Part shown: positions 2,211 to 63,121 of the stretch, in pieces
Position numbering within the stretch: the stretch's first letter is position 1
Layout: every line of letters starts with the position of its first letter
Source: Aminobacter anthyllidis
Lineage (GTDB): Bacteria > Pseudomonadota > Alphaproteobacteria > Rhizobiales > Rhizobiaceae
DNA: 64,000 nt
Direction of reading: 5' to 3'
Assembly: GCF_018555685.1 (NCBI RefSeq)
Contig: NZ_JAFLWW010000005.1
Location: forward strand, 248,001 to 312,000
Notes under the pieces: generated by a model
What the model was told of the DNA's origin: nothing
The model's input: only the letters and a program-made list of their open reading frames with translations
Database searches by the model: none
Position numbers and translations under genes: made by a program

Positions 2211-3236
2211 ATGAGCGAACGTCTCGAAGACATCGCCGTCGCCATGGTTGCGAACGGCAAGGGCATTCTGGCTGCGGACGAAAGCTCCGGCACCATCAAG
2301 AAGCGTTTCGACGTCATCGGCGTCGAGTCCACGGCCGACTCCCGCCGCGACTATCGCGAGATGATGTTCCGCACCAAGGAGGCGATGACCAAGTACATCT
2401 CCGGCGTCATCCTCTACGACGAGACCATTCGCCAGAACGCCGCCGACGGCACCCCGCTGGTCGAGCTCATCAAGGCATCGGGCGCCATTCCCGGCATCAA
2501 GGTCGACGCCGGCGCCAAGGGCATCGTCAACTTCCCCGGCGACACCATCACCGAAGGCCTCGACGGCCTGCGCGAGCGCCTGGCCGAGTACTACAAGCTC
2601 GGCGCGCGTTTCGCCAAATGGCGCGCCGTCATCGACATCTACACCGCCAACAACGTGCCGTCGGCCTATTCGCTGTCGGCCAACACCCAGGCGCTCGCCC
2701 GCTACGCGGCGCTGTGCCAGGAAGCCGGCATCGTGCCGATCGTCGAACCAGAAGTGCTGATGGACGGCGCCCACGACATCGACACCTGCTACGACGTCAC
2801 CAAGGCGACGCTGGTCAAGCTCTATGACGAGCTCTACGCCGCCCGCGTCGTGCTCGAAGGCACCATCCTGAAGCCAAACATGGTCATCTCGGGCAAGAAG
2901 GCCGCCAGGAAGGCCAGCGCCGAGGAAATCGCCGAAAAGACCATCAAGCTGTTCCGCGAGACGGTTCCGGCCGCGGTCCCGGGCATCGCCTTCCTGTCGG
3001 GCGGCCAGTCCGACGAGGAGGCAACCGCCAACCTCAACGCCATCAACGCCATCGGTCCGCATCCGTGGAAGCTGACCTTCTCCTACGGCCGCGCGCTGCA
3101 GGCAGCCCCGCAGAAGGCATGGTCGGGCAAGGTCGAGAACCTCGCCGCCGGCCAGGCCGCCTTCACCCACCGCGCCCACATGAACCACCTCGCCGCCCTC
3201 GGCCAGTGGAAGTCCGGGCTCGAAAAGGCTGCCTAA
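2211..3236 (+). CDS. fba: Fructose-bisphosphate aldolase, class I
   Basis: Cytosolic aldolase that cleaves fructose 1,6-bisphosphate by Schiff-base chemistry. The 341-residue length fits the metal-independent class I family. The class I active-site motif LEGTILKPNM places the Schiff-base lysine at residue 221, and the N-terminal GILAADESSGTIKKRF segment is diagnostic. CAGGAG lies 8 nt before ATG 2211. It is a single-gene unit: a 19-bp palindrome lies upstream and a textbook terminator downstream. Many bacteria use class II enzymes, so a class I type beside pgk is notable but common in rhizobia. Confidence 0.97.
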   Translation: MSERLEDIAVAMVANGKGILAADESSGTIKKRFDVIGVESTADSRRDYREMMFRTKEAMTKYISGVILYDETIRQNAADGTPLVELIKASGAIPGIKVDAGAKGIVNFPGDTITEGLDGLRERLAEYYKLGARFAKWRAVIDIYTANNVPSAYSLSANTQALARYAALCQEAGIVPIVEPEVLMDGAHDIDTCYDVTKATLVKLYDELYAARVVLEGTILKPNMVISGKKAARKASAEEIAEKTIKLFRETVPAAVPGIAFLSGGQSDEEATANLNAINAIGPHPWKLTFSYGRALQAAPQKAWSGKVENLAAGQAAFTHRAHMNHLAALGQWKSGLEKAA

Positions 3237-3260
3237 GCCAAACCGTCAAGCATGAATAAG

Positions 3261-3291
3261 AAAAAGCCCCGGAGCGATCCGGGGCTTTTTT
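3261..3291 (+). terminator. Rho-independent terminator of fba
   Basis: AGCCCCGGA / TCCGGGGCT pair around a GCGA loop, preceded by an A-run and followed by TTTTT, 25 nt after the fba stop. The A-run makes it usable from the minus strand as well, where it would end transcription past the tRNA. Confidence 0.92.
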
Positions 3292-3315
3292 GCTTATCGA
3301 CGGACGATAGCCGTT

Positions 3316-3389
3316 TGGTTCCCGCTCATGGGCTCGAACCACGATTCACGCCTTCAAAGGGCGGTGTCCTACCATTAGACGAAGCGGGA
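3316..3389 (-). tRNA. tRNA-Gln (anticodon UUG)
   Basis: Read on the minus strand, the acceptor arms TCCCGCT/AGCGGGA pair, followed by discriminator A and an encoded CCA. The anticodon stem CCGCC/GGCGG closes the loop CTTTGAA, giving anticodon TTG for glutamine CAA codons. The T arm CGTGG-TTCGAGC-CCATG is regular and the D arm has the TAATGGTA loop. The anticodon lies at 3355-3357 on the plus strand. Confidence 0.95.
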
Positions 3390-3471
3390 ATATGTTCTGG
3401 GTGCTCAACAGATCATCGCAGGCAGCGCTTGTCGAGCACCAGCCAACGGCGCGAGTCTTTGGCGCCGCCCC

Positions 3472-3891
3472 TCAATCCTGATACGTATATGACGCGCACA
3501 TGTCGGCGCTGCTTTCGGGCGGTTCGTCGCCGGTGAACACCGCAACGATCGTCAGGCCCTCGCCGCCGCTCCAGCTTGCAAGGTAGGTCACGTCGCCCGC
3601 GCCGCACAGCCTGTTGCCGTTCTCCAACTCGGGGTCGGCCGGATCCTCGACGCTGTAGAGCGAGGCATTGACCCGTTCTCCGTCGACGACGAAATGGTCG
3701 CCCAGCAAGGCTGCGAACTTCAGGGATTCGCCATTGGCGAAGGTGATCGAGAAATCGTCCATCGAAATGTCGCCGGTGATGCTCTCGGCGGTGGTGCTGA
3801 AAGCCCGGTAGCGGTCGCCCTCGGCGAATGCCGGCGCGGTCGCAGCGACCAGCAGGCCAACAATGGCAGGCAGTATCCGTTTGATGTTCAT
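3472..3891 (-). CDS. Secreted protein of unknown function
   Basis: 139 residues with a clear Sec signal peptide: a basic start (MNIKR), a hydrophobic core, and a likely signal peptidase I site after APAFA, near residue 23. The mature part is acidic and has two cysteines (NRLCGAG and DMCASY) that could form a periplasmic disulfide. I do not recognise a family. It stands alone downstream of the divergent DUF982 gene and upstream of the tRNA. The ATG at 3891 is followed by a complete signal peptide, which supports this start. Confidence 0.75.
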   Translation of the reverse strand: MNIKRILPAIVGLLVAATAPAFAEGDRYRAFSTTAESITGDISMDDFSITFANGESLKFAALLGDHFVVDGERVNASLYSVEDPADPELENGNRLCGAGDVTYLASWSGGEGLTIVAVFTGDEPPESSADMCASYTYQD

Positions 3892-4075
3892 TCTTCCCCA
3901 CCATGGTTCTTGAAGCGTGTCGCCTCATCTGTCACGGTAGGCACAGCCCCACAAGAGGGCCAAACTGGGAGCATCGCCACCGGCTGTCGAGCCGACGCAG
4001 CACAAGCTTGCCCGCTCTTCAACCGTGAGACGTTATGCGGCTCGCTTCCCTGGCCGGTTTGGCGTATGAGCGGCG

Positions 4076-7532: not shown

Positions 7533-8003
7533 TCAGTCGGAGCCAACGATCCCGTTGCCGATGGTAGTGGGCGAACGTTCAGGCCAGAACCAGATGAAGG
7601 CAGCGACAATGGTCGCGACGAGTTGGGCGAGCATCACCGCGCTCTCGGCAAGCGATCCGGCCTGCCATAACTTGGCCAGCCCGGCCGCGGCCAGCACCGC
7701 CAGGGCATAGAACACCGCGCGTGGCAGGTAGGCGGCGAATGCGAAGTCGCAAACCACCCGCGCCACCCAGACGCCGGCGCATGCGCCGGCAGCCGCGCCG
7801 ACCATGGCGGCAAAAATCTGGAGGTAGCGCGACGGCCGCACGCCCGCTGTGATCCAATCGCCAAGCACCAGCAGCTGACCGACGGCAATGCTCAACGCGG
7901 CCATCACGAAGTAAGCGACAAGCGTACAGATCATTAGCGCCAGGACCATGGCGGCAACCGTCGTCGGCCCGAAGGGGACTTTGGCAACACCTTGGGAACT
8001 CAT
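7533..8003 (-). CDS. Hypothetical integral membrane protein (156 aa)
   Basis: Four or so hydrophobic segments are visible (TVAAMVLALMICTLVAYFVM, the segment around IFAAMVGAAAGACAGVWVA, AVFYALAVLAAAGLA, and VMLAQLVATIVAAFIWF). The family is not recognised. ATG 8003 follows the GC-rich purine run GGGAGCGGGCGGG. The in-frame ATG at 8030 is possible but has no ribosome-binding site. It sits between the small membrane gene and the divergent TSUP permease. Confidence 0.65.
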   Translation of the reverse strand: MSSQGVAKVPFGPTTVAAMVLALMICTLVAYFVMAALSIAVGQLLVLGDWITAGVRPSRYLQIFAAMVGAAAGACAGVWVARVVCDFAFAAYLPRAVFYALAVLAAAGLAKLWQAGSLAESAVMLAQLVATIVAAFIWFWPERSPTTIGNGIVGSD

Positions 8004-8223
8004 CCCGCCCGCTCCCGATCCTGGATGCATCAAAATACCACGAAACGCGGCGGCCGTTTCCTACAGGAATTCAGCTCATTTCGACCAGAGCCATTCCAGC
8101 AGGAACATCACAGCGACCAGGCGGCATGTTCTGGCGGCGTCGTGTTCGCATCCTTGTCCCATCCCGGCACAGAAACCGCTGGCATGAGTCATGCATGGTA
8201 TGTCTTGCCGGCGGTAGCCGGAG

Positions 8224-8244
8224 CCTGATTTGTCTCAAATCAGG
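8224..8244. promoter_or_regulatory. Perfect hairpin in the 8004-8360 intergenic stretch
   Basis: CCTGATTTG-TCT-CAAATCAGG is a perfect 9-bp stem. No T-run follows on either strand, so it is not a clear terminator. It may be an operator or a structured leader ahead of the permease. I see nothing else in this 357-nt region. Confidence 0.4.
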
Positions 8245-8360
8245 TGGGGCTCGCCGGGGTGGGGAAGGGGTTTCCCTCCGGCGAGCTCTTGTCTGCCCCC
8301 AGGCGCAAAGCGTCAGTGGCTCCTTGCCCGCCCACACACGGGCATTGCAAGCTGGCCGGC

Positions 8361-9125
8361 ATGCCGGAACAGCTTTTCCTCATCATCGGTGCCGTCTTTG
8401 TCCTTGCCGGACTGGTCAAGGGCGTCGTCGGGCTTGGCCTGCCCACGGTCGCGATGGGGCTGCTTGGTCTTGTCATACTGCCGGCGGAGGCCGCCGCACT
8501 GCTCCTGCTGCCCTCCTTCGTCACCAACATCTGGCAGTTGCTCGTCGGGCCCGACATCACGACACTTGTCCGCCGCCTGTGGCCGATGATGCTGGCGGTG
8601 TTCGCCGCGACGCTTGCCTCCACCGGCCTGATCACCAGCAGATACACCGGCATGGTCACATCAGGGCTCGGGCTCGTGCTGCTCGTCTACGCCGCGCTCG
8701 GCCTGCTCAAGCTCAGAATGTCGGTACCGTCAGCCGCCGAGCCTTGGGCCGGGCCTGTCGTCGGCGCGCTCACCGGCATCATGACCGGCGCCACCGGCGT
8801 CTTCGTCATTCCGGCCGTGCCCTATCTCGGTGGATTGGGACTTGGCCGCGACGATCTCGTCCAGGCGCTCGGGCTCTCCTTCACCGTTTCCACCGTGGCC
8901 CTAGGCATCGGGCTGTGGTCGAACGACGCCATTCCGCTCCAGTCGATCGGCATATCGGCCCTGGCCATCGTTCCCGCCTTAGCCGGCATGTGGCTGGGCG
9001 GCTGGCTGCGCAGCCGCGTCGAGCCGGAAAGCTTCAGGCGCTGGTTCTTTGCCGGACTGGCGCTGCTCGGCGCGCATATTTCGTGGCAGGGCCTCGCCCC
9101 GGCCTTTCAGGGCGCGATTTTCTAG
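8361..9125 (+). CDS. TSUP/TauE-SafE family permease
   Basis: Inner-membrane protein of 254 residues with about eight hydrophobic segments arranged as two repeats. The first repeat has GLVKGVVGLGLPTVAMG and the second has GALTGIMTGATGVFVIPAVPY, the duplicated signature of this family, which exports or imports sulfonate- or sulfite-type anions. The substrate is not decidable here. ATG 8361 begins right at the first helix. Its last four bases overlap the end of a small convergent membrane-protein gene. Confidence 0.9.
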   Translation: MPEQLFLIIGAVFVLAGLVKGVVGLGLPTVAMGLLGLVILPAEAAALLLLPSFVTNIWQLLVGPDITTLVRRLWPMMLAVFAATLASTGLITSRYTGMVTSGLGLVLLVYAALGLLKLRMSVPSAAEPWAGPVVGALTGIMTGATGVFVIPAVPYLGGLGLGRDDLVQALGLSFTVSTVALGIGLWSNDAIPLQSIGISALAIVPALAGMWLGGWLRSRVEPESFRRWFFAGLALLGAHISWQGLAPAFQGAIF

Positions 9126-9277
9126 TGCCCCAGCAACGCGGTGATCGATATCGCCGCCAGCGCCAGCACCGCAAGCTTCCAGAAGTCCCGCCGCTGCCTC
9201 AGCCCCGGCAGGCCGAGCGGCTTGATCAGCTGGAGCGCCATGATGGCAAGGATGATGAGCGACAGCGCCTTCGACAT
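9122..9277 (-). CDS. Small conserved membrane protein (51 aa)
   Basis: An intact 51-codon frame from ATG 9277 to TAG 9122. Two hydrophobic helices (ALSLIILAIMALQLI and KLAVLALAAISITALL) flank a short basic loop (GLRQRRDFWK). The loop-and-helix pattern looks like a small Rhizobiales inner-membrane protein annotated as hypothetical. AAAGGCAGC precedes the ATG. The stop overlaps the convergent permease stop (CTAG). Confidence 0.7.
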   Translation of the reverse strand: MSKALSLIILAIMALQLIKPLGLPGLRQRRDFWKLAVLALAAISITALLGH

Positions 9278-9509
9278 GCTGCCTTTGATCAACTTCGCGC
9301 GCCCCTGTCAAAGCCGGTGGCCCGATCTGCTACAGTGTGCCGGCGCGCTACAGTTTGAGAACAGCGGCCTTGCATCGAAACGCTTCGAAAAAGCCAGTTT
9401 GCGGACAGGCTCTTAAACCAAGGTCAAATGGACGCCCCGGCGGCCCGGCGGGTACAAGACATGCCAACAAAGACGCCCTCGAGGGCCACTGTCCTGGGAA
9501 GGAGACGCC

Positions 9510-11417
9510 ATGCCATCTCGCTATCACGAGGTCTATGACGGTTGGGCCAGCGATCCCGAGGGGTTCTGGGCCGAGGCGGCAAGGGCGATCGACTGGTTCA
9601 AGCCATGGGACAAGGTCTTCGATGCCAAGCGCGGCGTCTATGGCCAGTGGTTTTCCGGGGCTGAATGCAACACCTGCTACAACGCGCTCGACCGCCATGT
9701 GCTGGGCGGCCGTGCCGAGCAGGTCGCCCTGATCCACGACAGCCCGATCACCGGAACGCAGCAGAAGTTCACCTATGCCGGGCTGCTCGCCGAAGTGAAT
9801 GCGCTCGCCAGCGTGCTCCAGGACCAGGGCGTGCAAAAAGGCGACCGCGTCATCATCTACATGCCGATGGTCGCCGAAGCGGCATTCGCCATGCTTGCCT
9901 GTGCCCGCCTTGGCGCCATCCATTCGGTCGTGTTCGGCGGCTTTGCCGCCAAGGAGCTGGCCACCCGCATCGACGACGCCACGCCGAAGCTGATCATCTC
10001 GGCCTCCTGCGGCATCGAGCCGGGCCGCGTCGTCGCCTACAAGCCGCTGCTCGACGGCGCCATCGAACTCTCCGCCCACAAGCCTGAGAGCTGCGTGATC
10101 CTGCAGCGGCCGCAGCTTGGCTGCGATCTCGTTGCCGGCCGCGACCTCGACTATGCCGACACTGTCGGCGCCGCCAAGGCCGCCGGCCGCACGGTCGAAT
10201 GCGTCTCCGTCGCCGCCACCGATCCGCTCTACGTGCTCTACACCTCGGGCACCACAGGCCAGCCCAAGGGCGTGGTCCGCGACAATGGCGGCCACATGGT
10301 CGCGCTCAAATGGTCGATGGAAAACCAATTCGGCGTCAAGCCCGGCGAAGTGTTCTGGGCGGCGTCCGATGTCGGCTGGGTCGTCGGCCACTCCTACATC
10401 GTCTATGCCCCGCTGCTGCACGGCGCCACCACCATCCTGTTCGAGGGCAAGCCGGTCGGCACGCCCGATGCTGGCACATTCTGGCGTGTCATTTCGGAAC
10501 ACGGGGTCGTCGCCCTGTTCACCGCGCCCACCGCCTTCCGCGCCATCAAGAAGGAAGACCCGCAAGGGCTCTTCGTGCCGCAATACGACCTGTCGAAATT
10601 CCGCACTTTGTTCCTCGCCGGCGAGCGCGCCGACCCCGAAACCATCAAATGGGCCGAAAACAAGCTGAAGGTCCCTGTCATCGATCACTGGTGGCAGACC
10701 GAGACCGGCAGCCCGATCAGCCAGAACCCGGTCGGGCTCGGGCTGTTGCCGGTCAAATACGGCTCGCCCTGCGTGCCGATGCCGGGCTACGACGTGCGCG
10801 TTCTCGACGATGCCGGCCACGAGGTCGGGCGTGGCACGCTCGGCAATGTCGTCATCAAGCTGCCCTTGCCGCCCGGCTGCCTGCCGACGCTGTGGCACGC
10901 CGACGAGCGCTTCTTCAGCGCCTACCTCGCCGAGTTTCCCGGCTACTACAAGACCGCGGATGCCGGCTATATCGACGATGAAGGCTACCTGTTCATCATG
11001 GCCCGCACCGACGACATCATCAACGTCGCCGGCCACCGCCTGTCGACCGGCGGCATGGAGGAGGTCGTCGCCGAGCATCCCGACGTCGCCGAATGCGCCG
11101 TCATCGGCATCGCCGACGCCATGAAGGGCCAGATCCCTTGCGGCTTCATCGTGCTCAACTCGGGTGTCGACCGCGACACCGGCATCATCGAGAAGGAAGT
11201 CGTCGGCCTCGTCCGCGACCGCATCGGCCCCGTCGCCGCCTTCAAGATGGTCGTCACCATCAAGCGCCTGCCCAAGACCCGCTCCGGCAAGATCCTGCGC
11301 GGCACCATGCAGAAGATCGCCGACCGCGAGGAGTGGAAGATGCCGGCAACGATCGACGATCCTGTCGTCCTCGACGAGATATCCGAGGCGCTGAAAGCGC
11401 GCGGCATCGGGGTCTAG
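9510..11417 (+). CDS. prpE: Propionyl-CoA synthetase / acyl-CoA synthetase
   Basis: ANL-superfamily enzyme of 635 residues that activates propionate (or another short acid) to its CoA thioester through an acyl-adenylate. The P-loop motif YTSGTTGQPKGVV begins near residue 244, the A5-type WWQTETGSP follows, and the catalytic lysine of TRSGKILRG is about residue 594. The N-terminus (YHEVYDGWASDPEGFWAEAA, WFKPWDKVFD) is the PrpE type rather than canonical Acs. GGGAAGGAGA precedes ATG 9510. The long antisense frame 9348-11078 is a shadow. Confidence 0.9.
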   Translation: MPSRYHEVYDGWASDPEGFWAEAARAIDWFKPWDKVFDAKRGVYGQWFSGAECNTCYNALDRHVLGGRAEQVALIHDSPITGTQQKFTYAGLLAEVNALASVLQDQGVQKGDRVIIYMPMVAEAAFAMLACARLGAIHSVVFGGFAAKELATRIDDATPKLIISASCGIEPGRVVAYKPLLDGAIELSAHKPESCVILQRPQLGCDLVAGRDLDYADTVGAAKAAGRTVECVSVAATDPLYVLYTSGTTGQPKGVVRDNGGHMVALKWSMENQFGVKPGEVFWAASDVGWVVGHSYIVYAPLLHGATTILFEGKPVGTPDAGTFWRVISEHGVVALFTAPTAFRAIKKEDPQGLFVPQYDLSKFRTLFLAGERADPETIKWAENKLKVPVIDHWWQTETGSPISQNPVGLGLLPVKYGSPCVPMPGYDVRVLDDAGHEVGRGTLGNVVIKLPLPPGCLPTLWHADERFFSAYLAEFPGYYKTADAGYIDDEGYLFIMARTDDIINVAGHRLSTGGMEEVVAEHPDVAECAVIGIADAMKGQIPCGFIVLNSGVDRDTGIIEKEVVGLVRDRIGPVAAFKMVVTIKRLPKTRSGKILRGTMQKIADREEWKMPATIDDPVVLDEISEALKARGIGV

Positions 11418-11445
11418 GCTCAGGACCCATCAATCCTTCACCACG

Positions 11446-11862
11446 TCACGTCCCCCTCGGCATTCGCTCGAATGTCTGCAACGCGGGGTCCATCGTGTCC
11501 CAGCCATGGCGGCGGATGCTGTATGTGACCGCGTGCGGGTTGAATTGGTCCGGATCGTCAAGGCTGGTCGCGGGGACCGCGATCAAGTCCGGCATCCCGA
11601 CGAATGTCAGGTAGACAGGCGTGCCGCAGGTCGGGCAGAAGGCGTGGACCTTTTCGTTGCCGCTGTCGCCCGCTACCCGCCAGGTGTTCGCATCGCCCGT
11701 AATTGTGACATCGGCGCGTTGGGGGAAGGTCAAATAGGATCCATGCCCGGTGCCGCTTCGTTTCTGGCAATCGCGGCATTGGCAATGGTTCTGGAAAATG
11801 GGTTCGCTGCTCGTTTCATAACGGATCGCGCCGCACGCGCATCCGCCGGCGCAAGGGATCAG
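11446..11862 (-). pseudogene. GFA/CENP-V zinc protein lacking a start codon
   Basis: The frame encodes an almost complete glutathione-dependent formaldehyde-activating-type domain: GGCACGAIRYE, CQCRDCQKRSG and FCPTCGTP carry all expected zinc-binding cysteines. There is no ATG, GTG or TTG before the domain. Going upstream, the frame runs back through the tail of a different gene until a TGA inside the oxidoreductase gene. The only legal start (TTG 11733) would delete the first zinc cluster. The CTG at 11862 is a remote possibility. It is probably 5-prime truncated by the rearrangement at 11859-11888. Confidence 0.7.
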
Positions 11863-35406: not shown

Positions 35407-35992
35407 CACTAAGAAGAGCCAGCCGCACGAACTCGGCCACCGAGCTGGTGCCGAGCTTCTCGGCGATCTTCGCCCGATGCGCGTCGATGGTGCGCACCGA
35501 CACGTCGAGCGCTTGCGCCACCTCCTTGCTCGCCCAGCCTTGCGCCACCATGTCAAGCACCTCGCGCTCGCGCTCGGTCAGCCTGGCCAGCAACGCCCGC
35601 GCCTCGTGCTTTTCCAGCCGCCCATCGAGGCTTGCAAAACCCTGCTGCAGCGCCTCGACCAGCACCTCGCCATCGACCGGCTTGGTCAAGAAATCCTGGA
35701 TGCCTGCCTTGAAGGCCCGCCGGCAGGCGGCGACGTCGCCATGGCCGGTGATCATCACGGTCGGCCAGTCGATGCCGCGCTCACTGAGCTTCTGGTAAAG
35801 CTGCAGCCCCGACACCTCGGGCATGCGCAGGTCGACCACCAGCACGCCGGGCTTGCCCTCGTCGACATGCGCCAGGAACGTCTGCGGGTCGCCGAAGGTC
35901 TCGACCGTAATGCCATAGGTGCCGAGCAGGAACGCCAGCGCCTCGCGCACCGCCTCGTCGTCGTCGATCAGATAGACCTGGTACCTGCTCAT
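35399..35992 (-). CDS. FixJ/NarL-type two-component response regulator
   Basis: 197 residues. The receiver domain has the acid pocket DDD at 10-12, the phospho-acceptor Asp 54 in VVDLRMP and Lys in LTKPVDG. The C-terminal LuxR helix-turn-helix is LTEREREVLDMVAQGWASKEVAQALDVSVRTIDAHRAKI. ATG 35992 overlaps the stop of the histidine kinase (ATGA), so the two are a coupled pair. The target promoters are unknown. Its end overlaps the palindromic repeat. Confidence 0.95.
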   Translation of the reverse strand: MSRYQVYLIDDDEAVREALAFLLGTYGITVETFGDPQTFLAHVDEGKPGVLVVDLRMPEVSGLQLYQKLSERGIDWPTVMITGHGDVAACRRAFKAGIQDFLTKPVDGEVLVEALQQGFASLDGRLEKHEARALLARLTEREREVLDMVAQGWASKEVAQALDVSVRTIDAHRAKIAEKLGTSSVAEFVRLALLSGA

Positions 35993-37713
35993 GCCTTGAC
36001 CCTCGGCAAAGTAATCACGAACCGCGCACCGCCGCCGGCAGCGTTGCCGGCCTCGATCCGCCCGTCGACCCGCTCCACCAGCGTCTGGCACAAGGACAGC
36101 CCCAGGCCCATGCCGTCGGCCTTGGTGGTGAAGAACGGCACGAACAGTTTTGGCAGCACGTCCGCCGCGATACCCGGCCCGTTGTCCGCCACCACGACCT
36201 GTACCTCCGCGCCCACGATCTTCGTCGCGATGGAAATCCGCGCGTCCAAAATCCCCGCCCCTTCCAGCGCATCGGCCGCATTGCGGATCAGGTTGTGCAG
36301 CACCTGCTCCATCTCGATTGCGTCGACCACCGCCTCTGGCGCCTCCGCCGAAAGGTCGAGCTCCAGCTTGATCCCGCGCCGCTCAAGATCGGCTGCCGTC
36401 AGCGCCACGATCTCGCTGACGATCCCGTTGAGTGCGCTCGGCTTTGGCTCCGGCGCCTTGTTGGAGGCATAGTCGCGCATCCGCTTCAGCATCTCGCCGG
36501 CGCGCTTGGCCTCGCGCACATTGACGTCGAGCGCCTGCGTTATCAGCCCGAGATCGAGTTTTTGGGCGCCGGCAAGCCTGAGCGCTGCCTGGCTGCGGCT
36601 CAGCACCGCCGTCAGCGGCTGCGTCAGCTCATGCGCGATACCAGATGCCAGCTCGCCCATGGCGTTGACGCGCGAGGCATGCGCCAGCAGCGTTTCCCGC
36701 TCCTGCAAAAGCGCCCGCGCCTCCGCGGCCCGCGCCACTTGTTGCGATTGTTGCGCCGCCGCCCGCTGCCTGAGCGCAAACATCAGCGCAAACGACGCCA
36801 GCCCGGCTAGGACGGCAAACCCAAGCACCGACCGCAGCGGCAAAAGTTCGTCAAGCGGCAAGGCCCGGTCGAGCGAAAGCAGGATCTTCTGCCCCTCGCC
36901 GTCGATCACCTTTTCGAAATGCGGCGCGGTCACAAACGAGACGCCCGCGCCGGAAGCTCCAGGCAGGTCGAGCAGCTCCTGCCCGTCGAGCGTGAGCCTC
37001 AGATGCGCCCAGGCCGGCCGCTCCTCCGGCTCAAGCAGAAGCGCAGCGTCGATGCCGAACACCAAGGCCGCATCGGAAGGTGCGGGCGCCCGCTTGGCCA
37101 GCAGATACCGCCCGTTCCGGCTCGCATGCACACCGATCTTGCCGCGCAGTTGTTCGCCGATCGCCCCGCGCAGCGGCGCAAGATCCTCGCCCCCGCCCTC
37201 CGGCACCTCGACCAGCATCCTGACCCCGCCGGGCGCGGCCGCAGCGCCAGTCGCCGCGCCACTTGCCTCAGCCGCCGCGCCGGCTGCGCCAGCCTCCGCC
37301 GCCGAACCAACGTCAGCTGCCCCCGCCCTATCTGCGCCTGCATCCGCCCCGGTGACCGCTCCCGCGCCCGCCACCCCGGTTGCAGGTCCCGCACCGCCCT
37401 CGCCCCCATCGAGCGAAACCAGCGCGATCCAGGCGATGCGCGGATAAAACCTTGTGATGCTCTCCATCACCTGCCGCACGGCGCCCAAGGGCGCGGGCTC
37501 CGCCCCGCTGGTCAGCGCGATCAGGCTGGTCATATGCGCATCATGCTGCGCCGCCCGCTGCGAAATCAGCCGGTGCAATGTCCGCCCCGTCACCTCCAGC
37601 TCCCCCGCCAGCCGCGCCTTGGACGCCTCCACCGAATAGAGCGCGAACGCCAAAAGCGCTGCGAGCCAGAGCGCGATGCCGAAGAGCAAAGATTTTGTCA
37701 GGTTATTTGTCAC
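35989..37713 (-). CDS. Sensor histidine kinase with a large periplasmic domain
   Basis: About 574 residues. A first membrane helix (LLFGIALWLAALLAFALYS), a periplasmic region with a low-complexity Ala/Gly run, a second membrane helix (VLGFAVLAGLASFALMFAL), then HisKA with SGIAHELTQPL and HATPase_c with N box LIRNAADALEG, DNGPGIA and GMGLGLSL. The N-terminus resembles DctB-type kinases. The start is uncertain: GTG 37713 (AAGG at good distance), ATG 37758 or TTG 37806. It is the operon partner of the regulator. Confidence 0.88.
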   Translation of the reverse strand: MTNNLTKSLLFGIALWLAALLAFALYSVEASKARLAGELEVTGRTLHRLISQRAAQHDAHMTSLIALTSGAEPAPLGAVRQVMESITRFYPRIAWIALVSLDGGEGGAGPATGVAGAGAVTGADAGADRAGAADVGSAAEAGAAGAAAEASGAATGAAAAPGGVRMLVEVPEGGGEDLAPLRGAIGEQLRGKIGVHASRNGRYLLAKRAPAPSDAALVFGIDAALLLEPEERPAWAHLRLTLDGQELLDLPGASGAGVSFVTAPHFEKVIDGEGQKILLSLDRALPLDELLPLRSVLGFAVLAGLASFALMFALRQRAAAQQSQQVARAAEARALLQERETLLAHASRVNAMGELASGIAHELTQPLTAVLSRSQAALRLAGAQKLDLGLITQALDVNVREAKRAGEMLKRMRDYASNKAPEPKPSALNGIVSEIVALTAADLERRGIKLELDLSAEAPEAVVDAIEMEQVLHNLIRNAADALEGAGILDARISIATKIVGAEVQVVVADNGPGIAADVLPKLFVPFFTTKADGMGLGLSLCQTLVERVDGRIEAGNAAGGGARFVITLPRVKA

Positions 37714-37812
37714 GCACCTTGCCCGAAACCCGCCTACGGGCAATTCAGGGAAAAGCATTTGTTGCTCTTCGTCCTCCCGATTTGCACTGAAAACGGGACC
37801 TAGCATTGTCGC

Positions 37813-39225
37813 TCACGGACCGCTTACTTTTCCTTTCTTCCCCCGGCTCGATTTCCCTTGAGACGATTCGAATAGGCTACGTTGTCGAGGGAACTGACGA
37901 TCCCTTGGTGTCTCAGGCACAGGGTCCAAAGCTTGAAGCGCTTCGAAAAGTGCCTCTCGAAGACGAGGTAGATTCACATTGAGCGACCTCTCGCGAGAGG
38001 CTTCAACTTTCACGGTCGACGAACTACGGAATTTCGACGAAACCAAGGGTAGAAGCTCAACATCTATGACAGAGGATACCCTTGTTCGAATCGAATCTAG
38101 AGATCGCGAAGCTCCAAGCAGCTCGTATTCAGCAAGCGAGATATCGCATGTCGGGGACGCGAATATAGCAGTCGGCTCGAAAACCTCACGCGCAACACGT
38201 CTGCCCAGGCACCTCCCATTTACTAGGCCGTCGAACCCCGAGCGCCAGCATGCGAATAGAGCGAACCAAAGCAATGAGCCAGGAAGCGTGTCGCGGACAC
38301 TATCCAACACTCCAATGTAATCAAAAGAACCATTAGCCAAACGAGCGGCAAGTAAGCCTACCCAAGCTTCAGCCAACGGCCTAGGAACCGAGGAGCGCAG
38401 CAACGCCTGAGCAGTGCGGTCTAAAACGACCAGTTGCTCCTCCCGCGGAAGCTCGAATTGTCGGTCTGCTGAACCCGCGAAAGGAAGAGTACTTTCAAGC
38501 TGATTCCAAGCAAAGCTTCCTTTCAGAGGTTTATCGAAGCGAGCAGTCTGAATCAAATCCTCAAGGGCGTCCGTCCAGGTACCGGACCTGTTGCGTGAAT
38601 TGGGCCCGTCGCTCAACAAACTGGATGAAACAATCATCCAAAACATACTCGATGAGTCGGGGTCTAAGCGTAGAGGTGCGTCGGCAGTCAATTGCCGCGC
38701 GCGTGCCCAAGCTTCTGAGAGTTCCGGTAGATCCGCTGGATGTAGACCAGACGCGAGCCCTCTAAGAGCGGCGTAGGAGAAGGTTGCCTGGCACGCTTGT
38801 ATGGAGATATTTGCTATCGAACGCGGGGCCTGTGGCGTCTGCACGACAGCTTCAGCAATTGCGATCCCCGACATAGCGGTCAGCAACGACTCCGGGAGTA
38901 GGGGTGCACGAGCTTCAAACAAGCTGAACCTAGCAGCGTCAGCCGTGGTTAGAATTCTGAAAAACGCCGTGAAAGGAGAATAGCTAGATATGTATGTCGT
39001 TGTCCAAGCTAGGAAGTCTTGCAATTCTTCCTCAGCGACGAGGATAATGGGGCCTGGAACACTTGTCGGACCGCTAGCTGGGCCTTGCCAAATCAGACCA
39101 ATCTTCCCCTTGGAAACAGATGTACCAATGTTGTCGAGCGAAGCGAGCGGCAGGCCCCTTGGCTCGGCATCTTCAGCGATCCAGTCCAGGAACGACCGCC
39201 GGTCCAGCACTATAAGCGTCTGCAT
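37813..39225 (-). CDS. ORF C: 470-residue protein of unknown family in the kinase-helicase operon
   Basis: I do not recognise it. The N-terminus is QTLIVLDRRSFLDWIAEDAE, followed by a beta-rich segment and a mid region rich in helices (AALRGLASGLHPADLPELSEAWARARQ). The end is basic and low-complexity (ESSQGKSSRGKKGKVSGP), suggesting nucleic-acid or acidic-partner contact. No signal peptide or clear membrane segment. ATG 39225 is chosen; a TTG at 39234 overlaps the helicase stop by TTGA. The gene is AT-richer than neighbouring core genes. Confidence 0.8.
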   Translation of the reverse strand: MQTLIVLDRRSFLDWIAEDAEPRGLPLASLDNIGTSVSKGKIGLIWQGPASGPTSVPGPIILVAEEELQDFLAWTTTYISSYSPFTAFFRILTTADAARFSLFEARAPLLPESLLTAMSGIAIAEAVVQTPQAPRSIANISIQACQATFSYAALRGLASGLHPADLPELSEAWARARQLTADAPLRLDPDSSSMFWMIVSSSLLSDGPNSRNRSGTWTDALEDLIQTARFDKPLKGSFAWNQLESTLPFAGSADRQFELPREEQLVVLDRTAQALLRSSVPRPLAEAWVGLLAARLANGSFDYIGVLDSVRDTLPGSLLWFALFACWRSGFDGLVNGRCLGRRVAREVFEPTAIFASPTCDISLAEYELLGASRSLDSIRTRVSSVIDVELLPLVSSKFRSSSTVKVEASRERSLNVNLPRLREALFEALQALDPVPETPRDRQFPRQRSLFESSQGKSSRGKKGKVSGP

Positions 39226-39230
39226 GTCAA

Positions 39231-40109
39231 TCAACCGCTAAACAGGGATTTCAAGTCGATGGAAGCAGGCGGTGGCGCGAGTGCCGCCTCGCCATTCTGT
39301 AACGGCCCGATCAGTGCGCCGCATCGATAAATAGTTAGACTGGTCTTAGCACGAGTGACCGCAGTGTACGCTAAACGCGTGCGCCCGGTCCGAAATTTGC
39401 CAATCCCCTCCATAGCTAGAAGGTGCAGGGCACGAAACTCAAGTCCTTTCGCACCATGTATGGTTCCAACCAAAATTCGTCTTTCCGGATCAAGAGCTGA
39501 ATAGCCTGTGGTTGAGAGCTGCAATTGTATGTCCGAGCGCAAATGGGTCCCAGACAACAGGTCCCAAACCTCTTTGACGTCTTCGATCCGAGGACAGAGC
39601 ACGCCAAGCATTCCCGTAGGATATGCCCGCAGCTGCCCTTGAAGTGATGCGACAGCCTTTATAACCTGATCTGGAAGGGAGTCTGGGTCAGTGAATAGAA
39701 CCTGCGAAGGGGCATCTGCCTCTTTATATTGGGCCGTTGCTTCCAATCCATCTTTTGACCCGACCAGATTAGTGATCCCGTCTGCGACGCGGCAAATCTT
39801 GATACCATTCCTATAATGGTAGGTAAGAACACTAACGCTCGGACAAATTTTCTTAAGTTTATCTATTGCACCATTCTGTTTGTAAATTCGCTGCCTATTA
39901 TCCCCTGCCGCAAATATCCTTTTGGAGAACCTAGCAATTATGTCTATCTCATCTACAGAATAATCTTGGCACTCATCCAATAAAATTGCATCCAATCTGT
40001 GATCGTCAACTTGATGATCATCAAGATCGCGCAGCTTCTGGAGAATCAAGTCCTTTTGATCGTCGTATTTTCCACGAATGCGAAAATCGACACCGCAGCT
40101 ATCTAGCAC
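39231..40109 (-). CDS. UvrD-like SF1 helicase, C-terminal part (frameshifted)
   Basis: 292 residues carrying motif II AILLDECQD, motif III FAAGDNRQRIYKQ, motif IV-like LTYHYRNGIKI, motif V VGTIHGAKGLEFR and motif VI AYTAVTRAKTSL. These identify a small SF1A (UvrD/PcrA-type) ATPase. Motif I is encoded by the upstream gene in another frame. The frame stays open upstream to near 40195, and the GTG at 40109 is merely the first legal start. Together the two parts would make about 375 residues. Tight overlap with ORF C. Confidence 0.85.
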   Translation of the reverse strand: MLDSCGVDFRIRGKYDDQKDLILQKLRDLDDHQVDDHRLDAILLDECQDYSVDEIDIIARFSKRIFAAGDNRQRIYKQNGAIDKLKKICPSVSVLTYHYRNGIKICRVADGITNLVGSKDGLEATAQYKEADAPSQVLFTDPDSLPDQVIKAVASLQGQLRAYPTGMLGVLCPRIEDVKEVWDLLSGTHLRSDIQLQLSTTGYSALDPERRILVGTIHGAKGLEFRALHLLAMEGIGKFRTGRTRLAYTAVTRAKTSLTIYRCGALIGPLQNGEAALAPPPASIDLKSLFSG

Positions 40110-40381
40110 ACTAGACGACCATCCAACAAATGTATCAATCCGGAAATCTTTGTAGTTGCGCTGCCACTTGCCAAAAACTCTCGCAGCACACGTCCAACAG
40201 TTAGCAATTGAAAATTGTTAATTCCGTTAGCCTGCAGATAAGATGCCCTGAGGAGTAAAAGATTCGTCTTCCCGCTGCCGGGAGGCCCTATTACCAGATG
40301 ATTCCCCGCCAACGGTAGCGAAACCACATCTCGCTGCTCAGTATCAAGATGCTCTGGCCTAGTCCACCACGTCGCTTCCAT
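40103..40381 (-). CDS. UvrD-like SF1 helicase, N-terminal part with Walker A (frameshifted)
   Basis: 92 residues with the Walker A motif LVIGPPGSGKTNLLLLRAS and the Q-motif-like LDTEQRDVVSLPLAG. The normal helicase frame appears to break near 40160-40195. After VLREFLASG this frame wanders to a stop, while the -1 frame continues NYKDFRIDTFVGWSSS into the C-terminal part. The TTTTTGGC run (GAG TTT TTG GCA) would allow -1 slippage; sequencing error or decay are alternatives. ATG 40381 overlaps the kinase stop (TAATG). Confidence 0.8.
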   Translation of the reverse strand: MEATWWTRPEHLDTEQRDVVSLPLAGNHLVIGPPGSGKTNLLLLRASYLQANGINNFQLLTVGRVLREFLASGSATTKISGLIHLLDGRLVC

Positions 40382-41760
40382 TACCCTTCCTTGCTCCCCT
40401 CAACTTCGGATCTAATGGACATCTGCTGAGCAAGGTCCACACTTGTCAAAACATAAAGAGCAATAGCATCTTCAATAGCTTTTTGATCAATTACTCCAGT
40501 ATAGATTCTAACGATTTCGGACGGCTGCCAATTAGCCTCTTCTCGACAGGTAGACGACCCGCCGTCCAACGCCACTATTCGGCTTTTCTCATCAAGCACC
40601 TCGGCCAGCAGGCAAACAGACAGCCCATCTGGAAGACCGACCTCAGCCAACGGCTCAAAGTCCGCACGAACCCCGCCTTGCGGTTCAGCGATGGCGTAGA
40701 CGATCCGCCTGGGAAGTGGAGGGTCGTCGTGACCAATACCTCGCAAAGTATCTCGCGAAATGCCAAGCACACCATGTAGCATTTGGCTCTCGCCAGAAGG
40801 CACAGATGTCTCGTACCGATTGGACTCGGACTGTCGAGTTTGCGCAGCAGCCACTCGCTGCCGTATTCGCTCCTGAAGCTCTAGCGCCCTGTCGTGCCTT
40901 TGCGCCGGCCGCCTAAAATTATCCCAGCTTACCATTTGCAATCGAGCTTCAGGGGACTTCACAAGGCAATTCTGCGCGAGCGTCACCAGATACGGCGGAA
41001 CCTCAGTTGACAGTAAGCCAGGAACCTCATTTTGAACCGCCTGAGCCAGGCGCGCGGGAACCCCAATATGCGCACCAAAGAGCGGTCGCTTCATGATCAA
41101 ATCATGTACCACACCACCTATTTGGTAGAACGTCACTGCGCGCCAGCCCTCGGGCGTATCCTCCTCCTGTCGCAATGCAAACTCTGGAGATGCATATTGG
41201 TTCGTGCCGACAAATAGAGGCGTACCTCCATGATCGGTAAGTCCAGTCTCCCCCACGGGGCGGAGAACCCCAAAATCTAACAACACAAGGCGACTTAGAT
41301 TATCCGCAACAACTATATTTGCAGGCTTGATATCGCGATGCACAAGGCCACGAGTCTCAAGATATTCTGCAGCGGAGGCGAGCTGCTCAACAAGGTCGGG
41401 AAGCGCAGTAGAGGGAATTTCCATTAACGCCTTGGATAGATTTGGTCCATCCAAAAGCTCCATCACCAAGTAGTGATTACCAGTTTTTGGTTCAACACCG
41501 GAACCAAACATCTTGACAATATTCGGATGGTCGTGACCGACTAGCCATTTTTCGCGATCCATCCGCTCTAGAAGCGCAGCATCGCCAAATTTAGTAATAA
41601 GTTCGGTATCGAACACTTTTACCGCAGCTTGTTCTGAGCCCTTTTTGGCATGAAAAACGGCTGCAGATTTCCCATTGTCAATGAAATCAACTATTTCCCA
41701 CCCATCGACGCCGCTGCTCCGAAGCGTCTCCAGCATACCTTTTGCTTTTGCAGAATCCAT
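40381..41760 (-). CDS. Ser/Thr protein kinase heading a kinase-helicase operon
   Basis: 459 residues. A eukaryotic-like kinase domain covers about residues 20-290: ATP lysine 48 in AAVKVF, catalytic HRDIKPAN (141-148), DFG (162-164) and an APE-like ASPEF. The glycine loop is atypical (NGKSAAV). After 300 there is an unassigned 160-residue domain. No membrane segment, unlike PASTA kinases. It is the first gene of a tightly overlapping operon with a UvrD-like helicase and ORF C, in AT-rich DNA. A defence or stress signalling role is inference. Confidence 0.9.
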   Translation of the reverse strand: MDSAKAKGMLETLRSSGVDGWEIVDFIDNGKSAAVFHAKKGSEQAAVKVFDTELITKFGDAALLERMDREKWLVGHDHPNIVKMFGSGVEPKTGNHYLVMELLDGPNLSKALMEIPSTALPDLVEQLASAAEYLETRGLVHRDIKPANIVVADNLSRLVLLDFGVLRPVGETGLTDHGGTPLFVGTNQYASPEFALRQEEDTPEGWRAVTFYQIGGVVHDLIMKRPLFGAHIGVPARLAQAVQNEVPGLLSTEVPPYLVTLAQNCLVKSPEARLQMVSWDNFRRPAQRHDRALELQERIRQRVAAAQTRQSESNRYETSVPSGESQMLHGVLGISRDTLRGIGHDDPPLPRRIVYAIAEPQGGVRADFEPLAEVGLPDGLSVCLLAEVLDEKSRIVALDGGSSTCREEANWQPSEIVRIYTGVIDQKAIEDAIALYVLTSVDLAQQMSIRSEVEGSKEG

Positions 41761-42037
41761 TTTCTCCCCCCTTATCTACCACTACCGCTCGCCCTACATG
41801 ATCACAAGATTTGGAAGGCACCCGGCGTTGCAATTTTTCGACCATTCAAACGCCTGATTCAAAAAAAGGGAGATGTTTAGCAGATTTCGGACAGAGCACA
41901 GCCTCTGCATCACTGGTGAAACACTAAGCCACACCACATGCCCATACTTCGAGGGCTTTCAGCGATCTCGAATGGCCATTTGCAATTGCTTGCCCGCGCC
42001 CGAAAACCCGCGCGGGCCGCCAACCGGAGACATCGCC

Positions 42038-42503: not shown

Positions 42504-42602
42504 CCTCCCTCCCCCTTGTGGGGAGGGATAAAGGGTGGGGGTACCCTTGGAAGCGCGAGGCCAAACACCCCCACCCCGGCCCTCCCCACAAGGGGGAGGG
42601 AG
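42504..42602. repeat. Long inverted repeat (CTCCCTCCCCCTTGTGGGGAGGG family)
   Basis: Left arm 42504-42544 and right arm 42562-42602 are near-perfect reverse complements (CTCCCTCCCCCTTGTGGGGAGGG... / ...CCCTCCCCACAAGGGGGAGGGAG). The same family occurs at 61085-61213. It lies between a decayed gene and the quinone oxidoreductase. Confidence 0.85.
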
Positions 42603-42608
42603 AAGGCC

Positions 42609-43613
42609 TCACCCCACATCCAGCACGATCTTGCCGATATGTTCGCCCTCTTCCATGCGCTCATGCGCCCGCCAGGCTTCCTTGAGCGGGAAGATCATGT
42701 CCATGACAGGCGCGATGCGGCGGGTGGCGAGCAGCGGCCACACCTGGGCTTCAAGCGCTGCGGCGATACCCGCCTTGAACTCGGTGGTGCGCGGCCTCAG
42801 CGTCGAGCCGGTATGGGTCAGCCGCTTGACCATCAGCTTTGAGAAATCAGCACTCGCCACCGCCCCGCCCTGCGTCGCGATCTGCACGATGCGGCCGTCG
42901 ACGGCGGCGGCATGGTAGTTGCGGCCGACATAGTCGCCGCCGACCATGTCGAGGATGACATTGGCGCCCTTGCCGTCGGTGGCGTCCTTGACCGCCGCAA
43001 CGAAATCCTCGGTCTTGTAGTTGATCGCCCGGTCGGCCCCGAGCTTGAGACAGGCGGCGCACTTGTCCTCGGAGCCTGCGGTGACAATCACATAGGCCCC
43101 GAAGGCCGAGGCAAGCTGGATCGCCGTCGTGCCGATGCCCGACGAGCCGCCATGCACCAGAAGCGTCTCCCCCGCCTTGAGCGCGCCGCGCTCGAACACA
43201 TTGTGCCAGACGGTGAAGAAGGTTTCGGGCACGGCGGCTGCTTCGGTGAAGGTGAAGCCGGCCGGCAGCGGCAGCGCGTTGGTTTCGTGCACCTTGGCGT
43301 ATTCGGCATAGCCGCCCCCCGGCGTCAGCGCACAGACAGCATCGCCGATACGGAAGCGGCTGGAACCCTCGCCGAGTGCCGCCACCTCGCCCGACACTTC
43401 GAGCCCGGGCAGGTCGGAGGCGCCGGGCGGCGCGGGATACGCGCCCTTGCGCTGCTGCACGTCGGGCCGGTTGACCCCGGCCGCATGCACCCGGATCAGG
43501 ATCTCGCCGGCGCCAAGTTCCGGCAGGTCGCGCTTTTCCGCCTTGAGCACGCGCGGCCCGCCCGGCTGCGAGATCGCCACCGCAAGCATCTTTTCGGGAA
43601 GTCTGGTGGCCAT
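42609..43613 (-). CDS. NAD(P)H-quinone oxidoreductase, PIG3/QOR type
   Basis: 334-residue zinc-free member of the medium-chain dehydrogenase superfamily. The N-terminal GroES-like half has AGVNRPDVQQRKGAYPAPPG; the Rossmann half has LLVHGGSSGIGTTAIQLASAFGA (AxxGxxG-type) and GADRAINY. The end HIGKIVLDVG is typical of TIGR02824-like QOR enzymes. It reduces quinones with NADPH; cytosolic. ATG 43613 begins MATRLPEKMLA. Divergent from the DUF1192 gene. Confidence 0.93.
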   Translation of the reverse strand: MATRLPEKMLAVAISQPGGPRVLKAEKRDLPELGAGEILIRVHAAGVNRPDVQQRKGAYPAPPGASDLPGLEVSGEVAALGEGSSRFRIGDAVCALTPGGGYAEYAKVHETNALPLPAGFTFTEAAAVPETFFTVWHNVFERGALKAGETLLVHGGSSGIGTTAIQLASAFGAYVIVTAGSEDKCAACLKLGADRAINYKTEDFVAAVKDATDGKGANVILDMVGGDYVGRNYHAAAVDGRIVQIATQGGAVASADFSKLMVKRLTHTGSTLRPRTTEFKAGIAAALEAQVWPLLATRRIAPVMDMIFPLKEAWRAHERMEEGEHIGKIVLDVG

Positions 43614-62958: not shown

Positions 62959-63121
62959 GGTGACGGTCTGCGCTTCCCGGCAGGAGAGCATTTTCCCCGG
63001 GGCCTTAACGATCCTTAGGGAGCTGTCCCTGGGAAGACCCGTGGGTCTTTTCACACGGCGCCCACCTACTTTGTAGGTCTCCGGGATCGACTTCTCCACC
63101 GGTCGTGTGGATCGTCACCCT
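62959..63121 (+). ncRNA. ssrS: 6S RNA
   Basis: The terminal stem GGTGACG (62959-62965) pairs with CGTCACC (63115-63121). Between them the conserved alphaproteobacterial segments GGGGCCTTAACGATCCTTAGGGAGCTGTCCCTGGG and CACACGGCGCCCACCTAC...TTGTAGGT form the long hairpin with a central bulge that mimics open promoter DNA and binds RNA polymerase. CTATAT at 62949-62954 is a fitting -10. Position directly before the 5-FCL gene is the classical 6S location. The exact ends are approximate. Confidence 0.9.

Follow-up and report, generated by a model that had tools for sequence, protein, structure and literature searches.

Layout of the kinase-helicase-ORF C locus

The DNA analysed here, called the window in the following, is a stretch of 64,000 nucleotides from Aminobacter anthyllidis (assembly GCF_018555685.1, contig NZ_JAFLWW010000005.1, positions 248,001 to 312,000 of the forward strand). 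It carries a compact group of three genes, below called the trio, coding for a Ser/Thr protein kinase, a small helicase of superfamily 1 (SF1) and a protein which we name ORF C (Table 1). As the original prediction, made from the letters of the sequence alone, had claimed, the genes follow each other head to tail, all on the minus strand, and their junctions are tight. The stop codon of the kinase gene and the start codon of the helicase gene (40381) share the sequence TAATG. For ORF C two start codons come into question, the ATG at 39225 just past the helicase stop and a TTG at 39234 overlapping it; the TTGA-type junction proposed earlier is a near-overlap and becomes a true overlap only with the TTG. 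The region 37813-41760 has a GC content of 51.7% compared with 63.5% in the remaining window, confirming that it is richer in AT than its flanks, and the lowest value among the other non-overlapping window stretches of the same size is 59.0%. Scans for promoters and terminators at the locus gave matches at chance level only.

Table 1. Features of the trio locus and of its borders, in window coordinates
Feature	Position	Strand	Remarks
Sensor histidine kinase gene, left border of the variable site	35989..37806	minus	in 10/10 genus genomes
Segment without homology in genus relatives	37729..41988		trio plus about 85 and 230 bp; blastn
ORF C, 470 aa	37813..39225	minus	ATG at 39225; new protein family
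Helicase gene of minimal SF1 type (UvrD/GajB/HelD-like), split by a frameshift	39231..40381	minus	Pfam UvrD families on both pieces
Frame-change zone of the helicase gene	40142..40160	minus	tblastn, intact relatives
Ser/Thr (Hanks-type) protein kinase gene	40381..41760	minus	459 aa; Pfam Pkinase
Quinone-oxidoreductase-like gene, right border of the variable site	42609..43613	minus	in 10/10 genus genomes

In blastn comparisons the homology to genus relatives is lost at 37676-37728; it is found again from 41989-41991 onwards in G004, G005 and G006, and further to the right in the others. From these break points it follows that the foreign segment is essentially the trio. ORF C is found in one of ten genus genomes, and so is the helicase if a partial match to a 721-aa frame in G007 is disregarded; the trio is thus not kept at this site in all relatives. 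The distance from flank to flank ranges from about 1.1 to 26.5 kb in the seven relatives that have both flanks on one contig. The chromosomal site is a variable cargo site, where the trio, a mobile module, most likely arrived as a piece of foreign DNA of about 4.3 kb. Flanking or terminal repeats were looked for at the segment ends, and none were recognised.

Three further observations concern this site. G005 carries a different AT-rich gene set at the same place (L168:545-2681), which by eye comprises deoxycytidylate-deaminase-like, dCTP-deaminase-like and thymidylate-synthase-like genes and is possibly another defence cassette. On the left side the N-terminal residues of the sensor kinase as called (start 37806) fall within the foreign segment (37729-37806), so the true start may be further in. 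On the right side, two perfectly complementary 23-nt arms lie 52 nt apart (42505-42602) in the stretch that separates the variable site from the quinone-oxidoreductase gene; they are possibly a small repeat element.

Distribution and genomic surroundings of the trio

Genomes of the GTDB collection were scanned with the helicase alignment and the best 80 loci were kept, so that the relatives counted here are a minimum. Loci from the same genomes (L039, L042 and L053, duplicating L009, L005 and L006) or the same contig (L119, duplicating L014) were dropped, as were L098-L118, whose helicases measure 767-841 aa and have neither kinase nor ORF C nearby. ORFs were called mechanically by script. Among the 56 distinct loci thus obtained, 45 show the order kinase-helicase-ORF C, so that the three-gene order recurs across genomes. 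Of the other 11, seven meet contig ends (L045, L049, L076, L080, L094-L096), two (L093, L097) are helicase fragments, and two are taken up below. The third protein, which had been expected to be variable, is therefore constant; its absence coincides with the end of a contig or with a fragmentary helicase. At both junctions the genes most often overlap by 4 nt (11/49 and 21/49, respectively). On the cut contig of L049, labelled as a Zambryskibacteria metagenome-assembled genome (MAG), a partial ORF C is situated about 1.4 kb past the helicase (2484-3921).

According to the record titles, in which the assignment of MAGs may contain errors, the carriers are alpha-, beta- and gammaproteobacteria, Desulfovibrio, several Acidobacteria, a Bacteroidales MAG and the verrucomicrobium Luteolibacter. 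A search for ORF C in other genomes gave one hit among 101 relatives (G031), one among 385 genomes of the class (G101) and one among 398 of the phylum (G822), each within an intact kinase-helicase-ORF C cassette. Among the carriers of intact trios are Bradyrhizobium sp. 149 (L009), Fulvimarina pelagi HTCC2506 (L005) and a Sneathiellales MAG. Another match of the phylum search, in G721 (E=5e-4), is not accompanied by a trio and was regarded as fortuitous.

The protein distances of the three partners are correlated over 48 loci (a set that includes L039, L042 and L053), with coefficients of 0.765 for kinase and helicase, 0.715 for kinase and ORF C and 0.713 for helicase and ORF C, the largest value in 500 permutations being 0.22. 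Judging from these correlations, the trio travels as a unit.

The trio also occurs on mobile elements. Three IMG/VR contigs (L011, L012, L013) contain it in full. In two of them it is situated amid phage genes as identified by PHROGs, namely connector genes and an endolysin in L011, and head genes and a terminase in L012, where the trio is oriented opposite to the head genes; by eye, both contigs look like Mu-like prophages. Another IMG/VR contig, L014, has a kinase split in two frames (7878-9355) and a helicase near an integrase and is cut by the contig end. A helicase scan of viral contigs gave ten loci, one of which belongs to this helicase family (L119, on the contig of L014). Two records of a conjugative Rhizobium leguminosarum plasmid carry the trio next to DUF1837 and DEAD-helicase genes, a DarT-family gene and a RelA/SpoT gene; the DUF1837 and DEAD-helicase pair we take to be the two parts of Hachiman, and thus a probable Hachiman system. 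The Cupriavidus plasmid pMTS3 (L038) has a copy of the trio as well; its ORF C is recognised by profile over 10122-11519, where the gene table has only a hypothetical gene at 10794-11522. No plasmid record was matched by ORF C from a Burkholderia copy.

With trios in phage contigs and on plasmids, we considered whether they could be regulatory or maintenance modules of prophages and plasmids, similar to toxin-antitoxin modules, in which the kinase would be the toxin or switch and ORF C or the helicase its restraint, defence being secondary or absent. There is a precedent in KKP, a three-gene kinase module of diverse prophages, Mu-like ones included, which according to passages of PMC11341870 controls virion production in addition to defence. 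The 56 loci, however, come from bacterial assemblies and mostly lack phage genes among the neighbour Pfam families listed, many neighbours belong to defence families, and the cassette contains neither a phosphatase nor a second kinase by Pfam, PADLOC and NCBIfam. An ATP-driven helicase would moreover be unusual in a toxin-antitoxin module. We regard this explanation as unlikely.

PADLOC was used at E<=1e-10 to score the neighbourhood of the trio at the 56 loci to a distance of at most four ORFs left and right (329 of 332 proteins scanned); the neighbours of HelD-like genes served as control (126 of 148 proteins, identical scan). Batches of 120, 126 and 83 trio neighbours matched 320, 156 and 57 PADLOC families, respectively, compared with 9 families for the 126 control proteins, so that known defence families exceed the control; since the control loci are Firmicutes and differ in taxa from the trio carriers, since redundant PADLOC models inflate the family counts and since these are counts per batch and not per locus, we claim an enrichment but not its size. 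Among the strong neighbour matches listed are Gabija, type I restriction-modification, Dpd, Pycsar with a TIR effector and Qat, and further a type III methylase, Bil, Ietas and Zorya.

We conclude that the trio is a mobile module and most likely an undescribed anti-phage system, and put the probability of a defence module at roughly 0.65. A phage-defence system is probable because the same trio occurs in distant bacteria, in phage contigs and beside antiviral genes. The candidate undescribed defence system of the original prediction thus gains support from the conserved order, the phage contigs, the plasmids and the defence neighbours, and we still infer its role from this context.

Several observations weigh against this conclusion, in addition to the limits of the control just given. 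The control neighbours also yield one strong match, DpdF (3.4e-107), and many trio neighbours are ordinary genes, with dnaA, dnaN or gyrB beside at most two loci among the families listed. L046 and L073 lack the kinase despite room upstream; having helicase and ORF C only, they could represent a two-gene variant or gene loss. ORF C and helicase of L012 have no match in 50,697 INPHARED phage records. In the proteins, 28 of the 53 aligned kinases have E at position 70 and 25 have Q; should this be the position of the usual helix-C glutamate, a tentative assignment, kinase activity would be less certain. Finally, the helicase of the window is frameshifted, and its ORF C has Q at position 262, where R is kept by 54 of 56 members.

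Predicted properties of the three proteins

The residue counts refer to three alignments. That of the kinase has 53 rows (46 of 49 kinases), that of the helicase 50 rows (43 of 51 long ones) and that of ORF C 56 rows (49 of 49). The kinase and ORF C alignments include in addition the window, L042, L053, L039 and L011-L013, the helicase alignment L004-L006, L009 and L011-L013.

The kinase matches Pfam Pkinase with E=6e-25 and its kinase domain comprises approximately residues 15-287. In the structural model (pLDDT 86.7) this domain resembles PknB (Z 26.8), and a C-terminal alpha/beta domain of about residues 323-455, consisting of a helix, five strands and a helix, is separate from it, in line with the additional domain postulated earlier. 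The absence of a membrane anchor was likewise confirmed, the maximal 19-residue hydropathy being 1.46 here and 0.87-1.92 in the 53 members. K48 is conserved in 52 of 53 aligned members and D143, N148 and D162 in all 53; from these catalytic residues the kinase is predicted to be active. A housekeeping kinase of the PASTA/PknB type was rejected, as Pfam finds no PASTA domain, there is no membrane stretch, and the score for PknB_PASTA of NCBIfam is 92.6 with a cut-off of 450. For the C-terminal domain the top Foldseek hits are AMPK chains and the order helix-strands-helix would fit an AMPK/KA1-like domain, yet we do not claim this relationship because the VIA-align rows cover essentially the kinase domain, bar one with an rmsd of 15.2.

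The helicase gene of the window is not intact. The original prediction of a small SF1 helicase holds for the family, with UvrD matches in Pfam, but not for an uninterrupted gene. The gene here is spread over two ORFs which overlap but differ in frame; Walker A lies in the first (40381-40103), the later motifs in the second (40109-39231). In tblastn with five relatives the frame switches at about 40142-40160. Elsewhere 51 of the 56 distinct loci have a helicase ORF exceeding 300 aa, the intact homologues measuring about 380-390 aa; of the five short ones L094 and L096 meet contig ends, L093 and L097 are fragments, and L095 is frameshifted at a contig end (9054-10074). Broken copies thus recur, the split kinase of L014 being another case. 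Programmed frameshifting was considered and rejected; as the relatives keep a single open frame and no slippery run was seen by eye, a mutation or a sequencing error is preferred.

Judging from the split helicase frame and Q262 of ORF C, the copy in the window has probably lost its activity or is in decay, provided that the frameshift is not an error of sequencing or draft assembly. That it is a dead remnant of a system working elsewhere is compatible with an anti-phage module and is, for this copy alone, the somewhat favoured explanation. On the other hand, the frames of kinase and ORF C are open, the other invariant residues are kept, and the genome is a draft in 30 contigs, in which an assembly error is possible.

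All 50 aligned helicases, a set chosen for long ORFs, keep Walker A, the DE of motif II and the residues of the later motifs. A comparison of the helicase profile with solved structures gave HelD as the best match (6wvk, E=8.5e-27), then PcrA and UvrD, with GajB from 1.3e-16. This order of matches would speak for an accessory cassette for DNA repair or transcription recycling, in which phosphorylation regulates a HelD/UvrD-like motor that helps under DNA stress and is not directed at phages. However, the match to HelD spans only part of the motor (profile positions 119-363), and the patchy distribution, the carriage by phages and the defence neighbours are unexpected for a repair gene. We therefore consider such a cassette improbable.

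ORF C had been described as a 470-residue protein of unknown family, and indeed none of Pfam, PADLOC and NCBIfam gives a match for it, even with a threshold of E<=1. Across its family no Pfam match is better than E=0.0055, and each such match is limited to at most three of the 56 members; ORF C thus does not belong to a housekeeping family. P82, D359 and E364 are invariant in the 56 members, E123 is present in 54 and W318 in 53, and E260, R262 and P391 are further conserved residues. A membrane protein can be rejected (maximal 19-residue hydropathy 1.06-1.85 in 56 members). Comparing the ORF C profile with PDB sequences gave a designed protein (E 0.008) and a sigma factor (E 0.33), both taken as chance.

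The structural model of ORF C is confident (pLDDT 87.3, pTM 0.84). Foldseek found nothing at E<=0.001 in PDB and BFVD, whereas VIA-align points to ADP-ribosylhydrolases. Its first 26 rows, titled ADP-ribosylhydrolases or close kin save for one mitoribosome chain, align 195-224 residues (about 108-348) with an rmsd of about 4 and a Z of 7.3-9.7, which is below the level of about 13 advised by VIA-align for helical proteins; the next row has a Z of 2.9, a conspicuous drop. The identity to ADP-ribosylhydrolases amounts to 7-12%, PF03747 is listed for none of the 56 members at E<=1, and hhalign with an ADP-ribosylhydrolase profile of eight sequences only gave a probability of 0.3%. ADP-ribosylhydrolases (ARH/DraG) carry acidic metal-binding motifs. 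No TDD or DxD-like motif was seen in the ORF C alignment, which was inspected without superposition. As a lead from the model, the helical core of ORF C (about 108-348) may resemble the ADP-ribosylhydrolase fold without recognisable metal ligands.

How could these proteins act together? The minimal SF1 motor would bind abnormal nucleic acid of phage replication, such as ends, gaps or stalled forks, and signal to the kinase through ATP hydrolysis. The kinase would be the effector and phosphorylate host or phage proteins, thereby halting growth or phage replication (abortive infection), and ORF C would be an adaptor or brake between helicase and kinase, perhaps a nucleotide sensor. Such a combination, in which an ATP-driven nucleic-acid motor and a kinase predicted to be active are joined by an unchanging third protein in one conserved and mobile unit, fits a sensor-effector immune module. 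Analogies can be drawn with known proteins, as far as passages of the respective papers go: GajB binds DNA termini and promotes GajA (PMC10952713), CapK is activated by single-stranded DNA (PMC13373217), and defence by KKP involves kinase toxicity with division arrest (PMC11341870). To assign the sensor role to the helicase, that of the effector to the kinase and that of a coupler or brake to ORF C is a tentative proposal, which we hold to be less likely than not. A more specific version, a distinct form of immunity signalling in which the SF1 motor would sense phage nucleic acid and drive the kinase while ORF C, with a catalytically retired ADP-ribosylhydrolase fold, would be a partner of the kinase sensing nucleotides or ADP-ribose, or its substrate, appears to us rather doubtful.

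Apart from the trio locus, a 6S RNA gene was recognised in the window at 62962-63117 (Rfam RF00013, 79 bits).

Novelty and comparison with known systems

No description of the trio was found in PADLOC 2023 or in open-access full text, a search that mostly did not extend to subscription papers and preprints, nor in the passages considered of PMC11341870, PMC10853773, PMC13092281, PMC12839542, PMC10952713 and PMC13373217. Given this scope, with newer tools, subscription papers and most preprints outside it, a description may exist elsewhere. If our interpretation is correct, the trio is an immune module that extends across five phyla by record title (two of them via MAGs only) and into phage contigs and has no model in the PADLOC release, and it would be a case of phage defence in which a DNA motor is coupled to the phosphorylation of proteins. 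ORF C defines a protein family outside all Pfam models, and the intact copies of the trio allow direct testing.

Individual parts of the trio resemble parts of known systems. Its SF1 motor is related to GajB of Gabija, and GajB is the best PADLOC match of the second helicase piece (1.1e-10). This match, however, concerns one piece only, and in the PDB HelD, PcrA and UvrD score better. Instead of an OLD-type ATPase/nuclease like GajA, the cassette combines the motor with a kinase, whose listed matches do not include GajA, and with ORF C, which has no PADLOC or Pfam match. The motor measures about 385 aa compared with 493-499 aa in the solved GajB chains. HelD itself differs as well, since the aligned part of the profile corresponds to 526-762 of 6wvk only, and the trio helicases are as a rule shorter than the control ORFs L098-L118, whose HelD label is inferred (about 380-390 aa versus 767-841 aa).

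The best PADLOC match of the kinase is PD-T4-6 (2.3e-35), restricted to the kinase domain, which also matches kinases of other systems. PD-T4-6 acts as a single gene, whereas in the trio three genes are conserved together. The PADLOC candidates C3a187 (NERD and UvrD) and C3a189 (kinase), compared by name only, match a helicase piece with 2e-7 and the kinase with 1.9e-17, respectively, in both cases through shared domains only, and the trio helicase is too short to contain a NERD domain. ORF C may resemble ADP-ribosylhydrolases (ARH1, ARH3, DraG), judging from the structural rows described above, while support from sequence is absent. KKP, according to passages of PMC11341870, is likewise a three-gene kinase-based prophage module, but the trio has a helicase and ORF C and lacks a second kinase and any match to a phosphatase. 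By its defining parts the trio fits neither Gabija nor KKP nor a single-gene kinase system.

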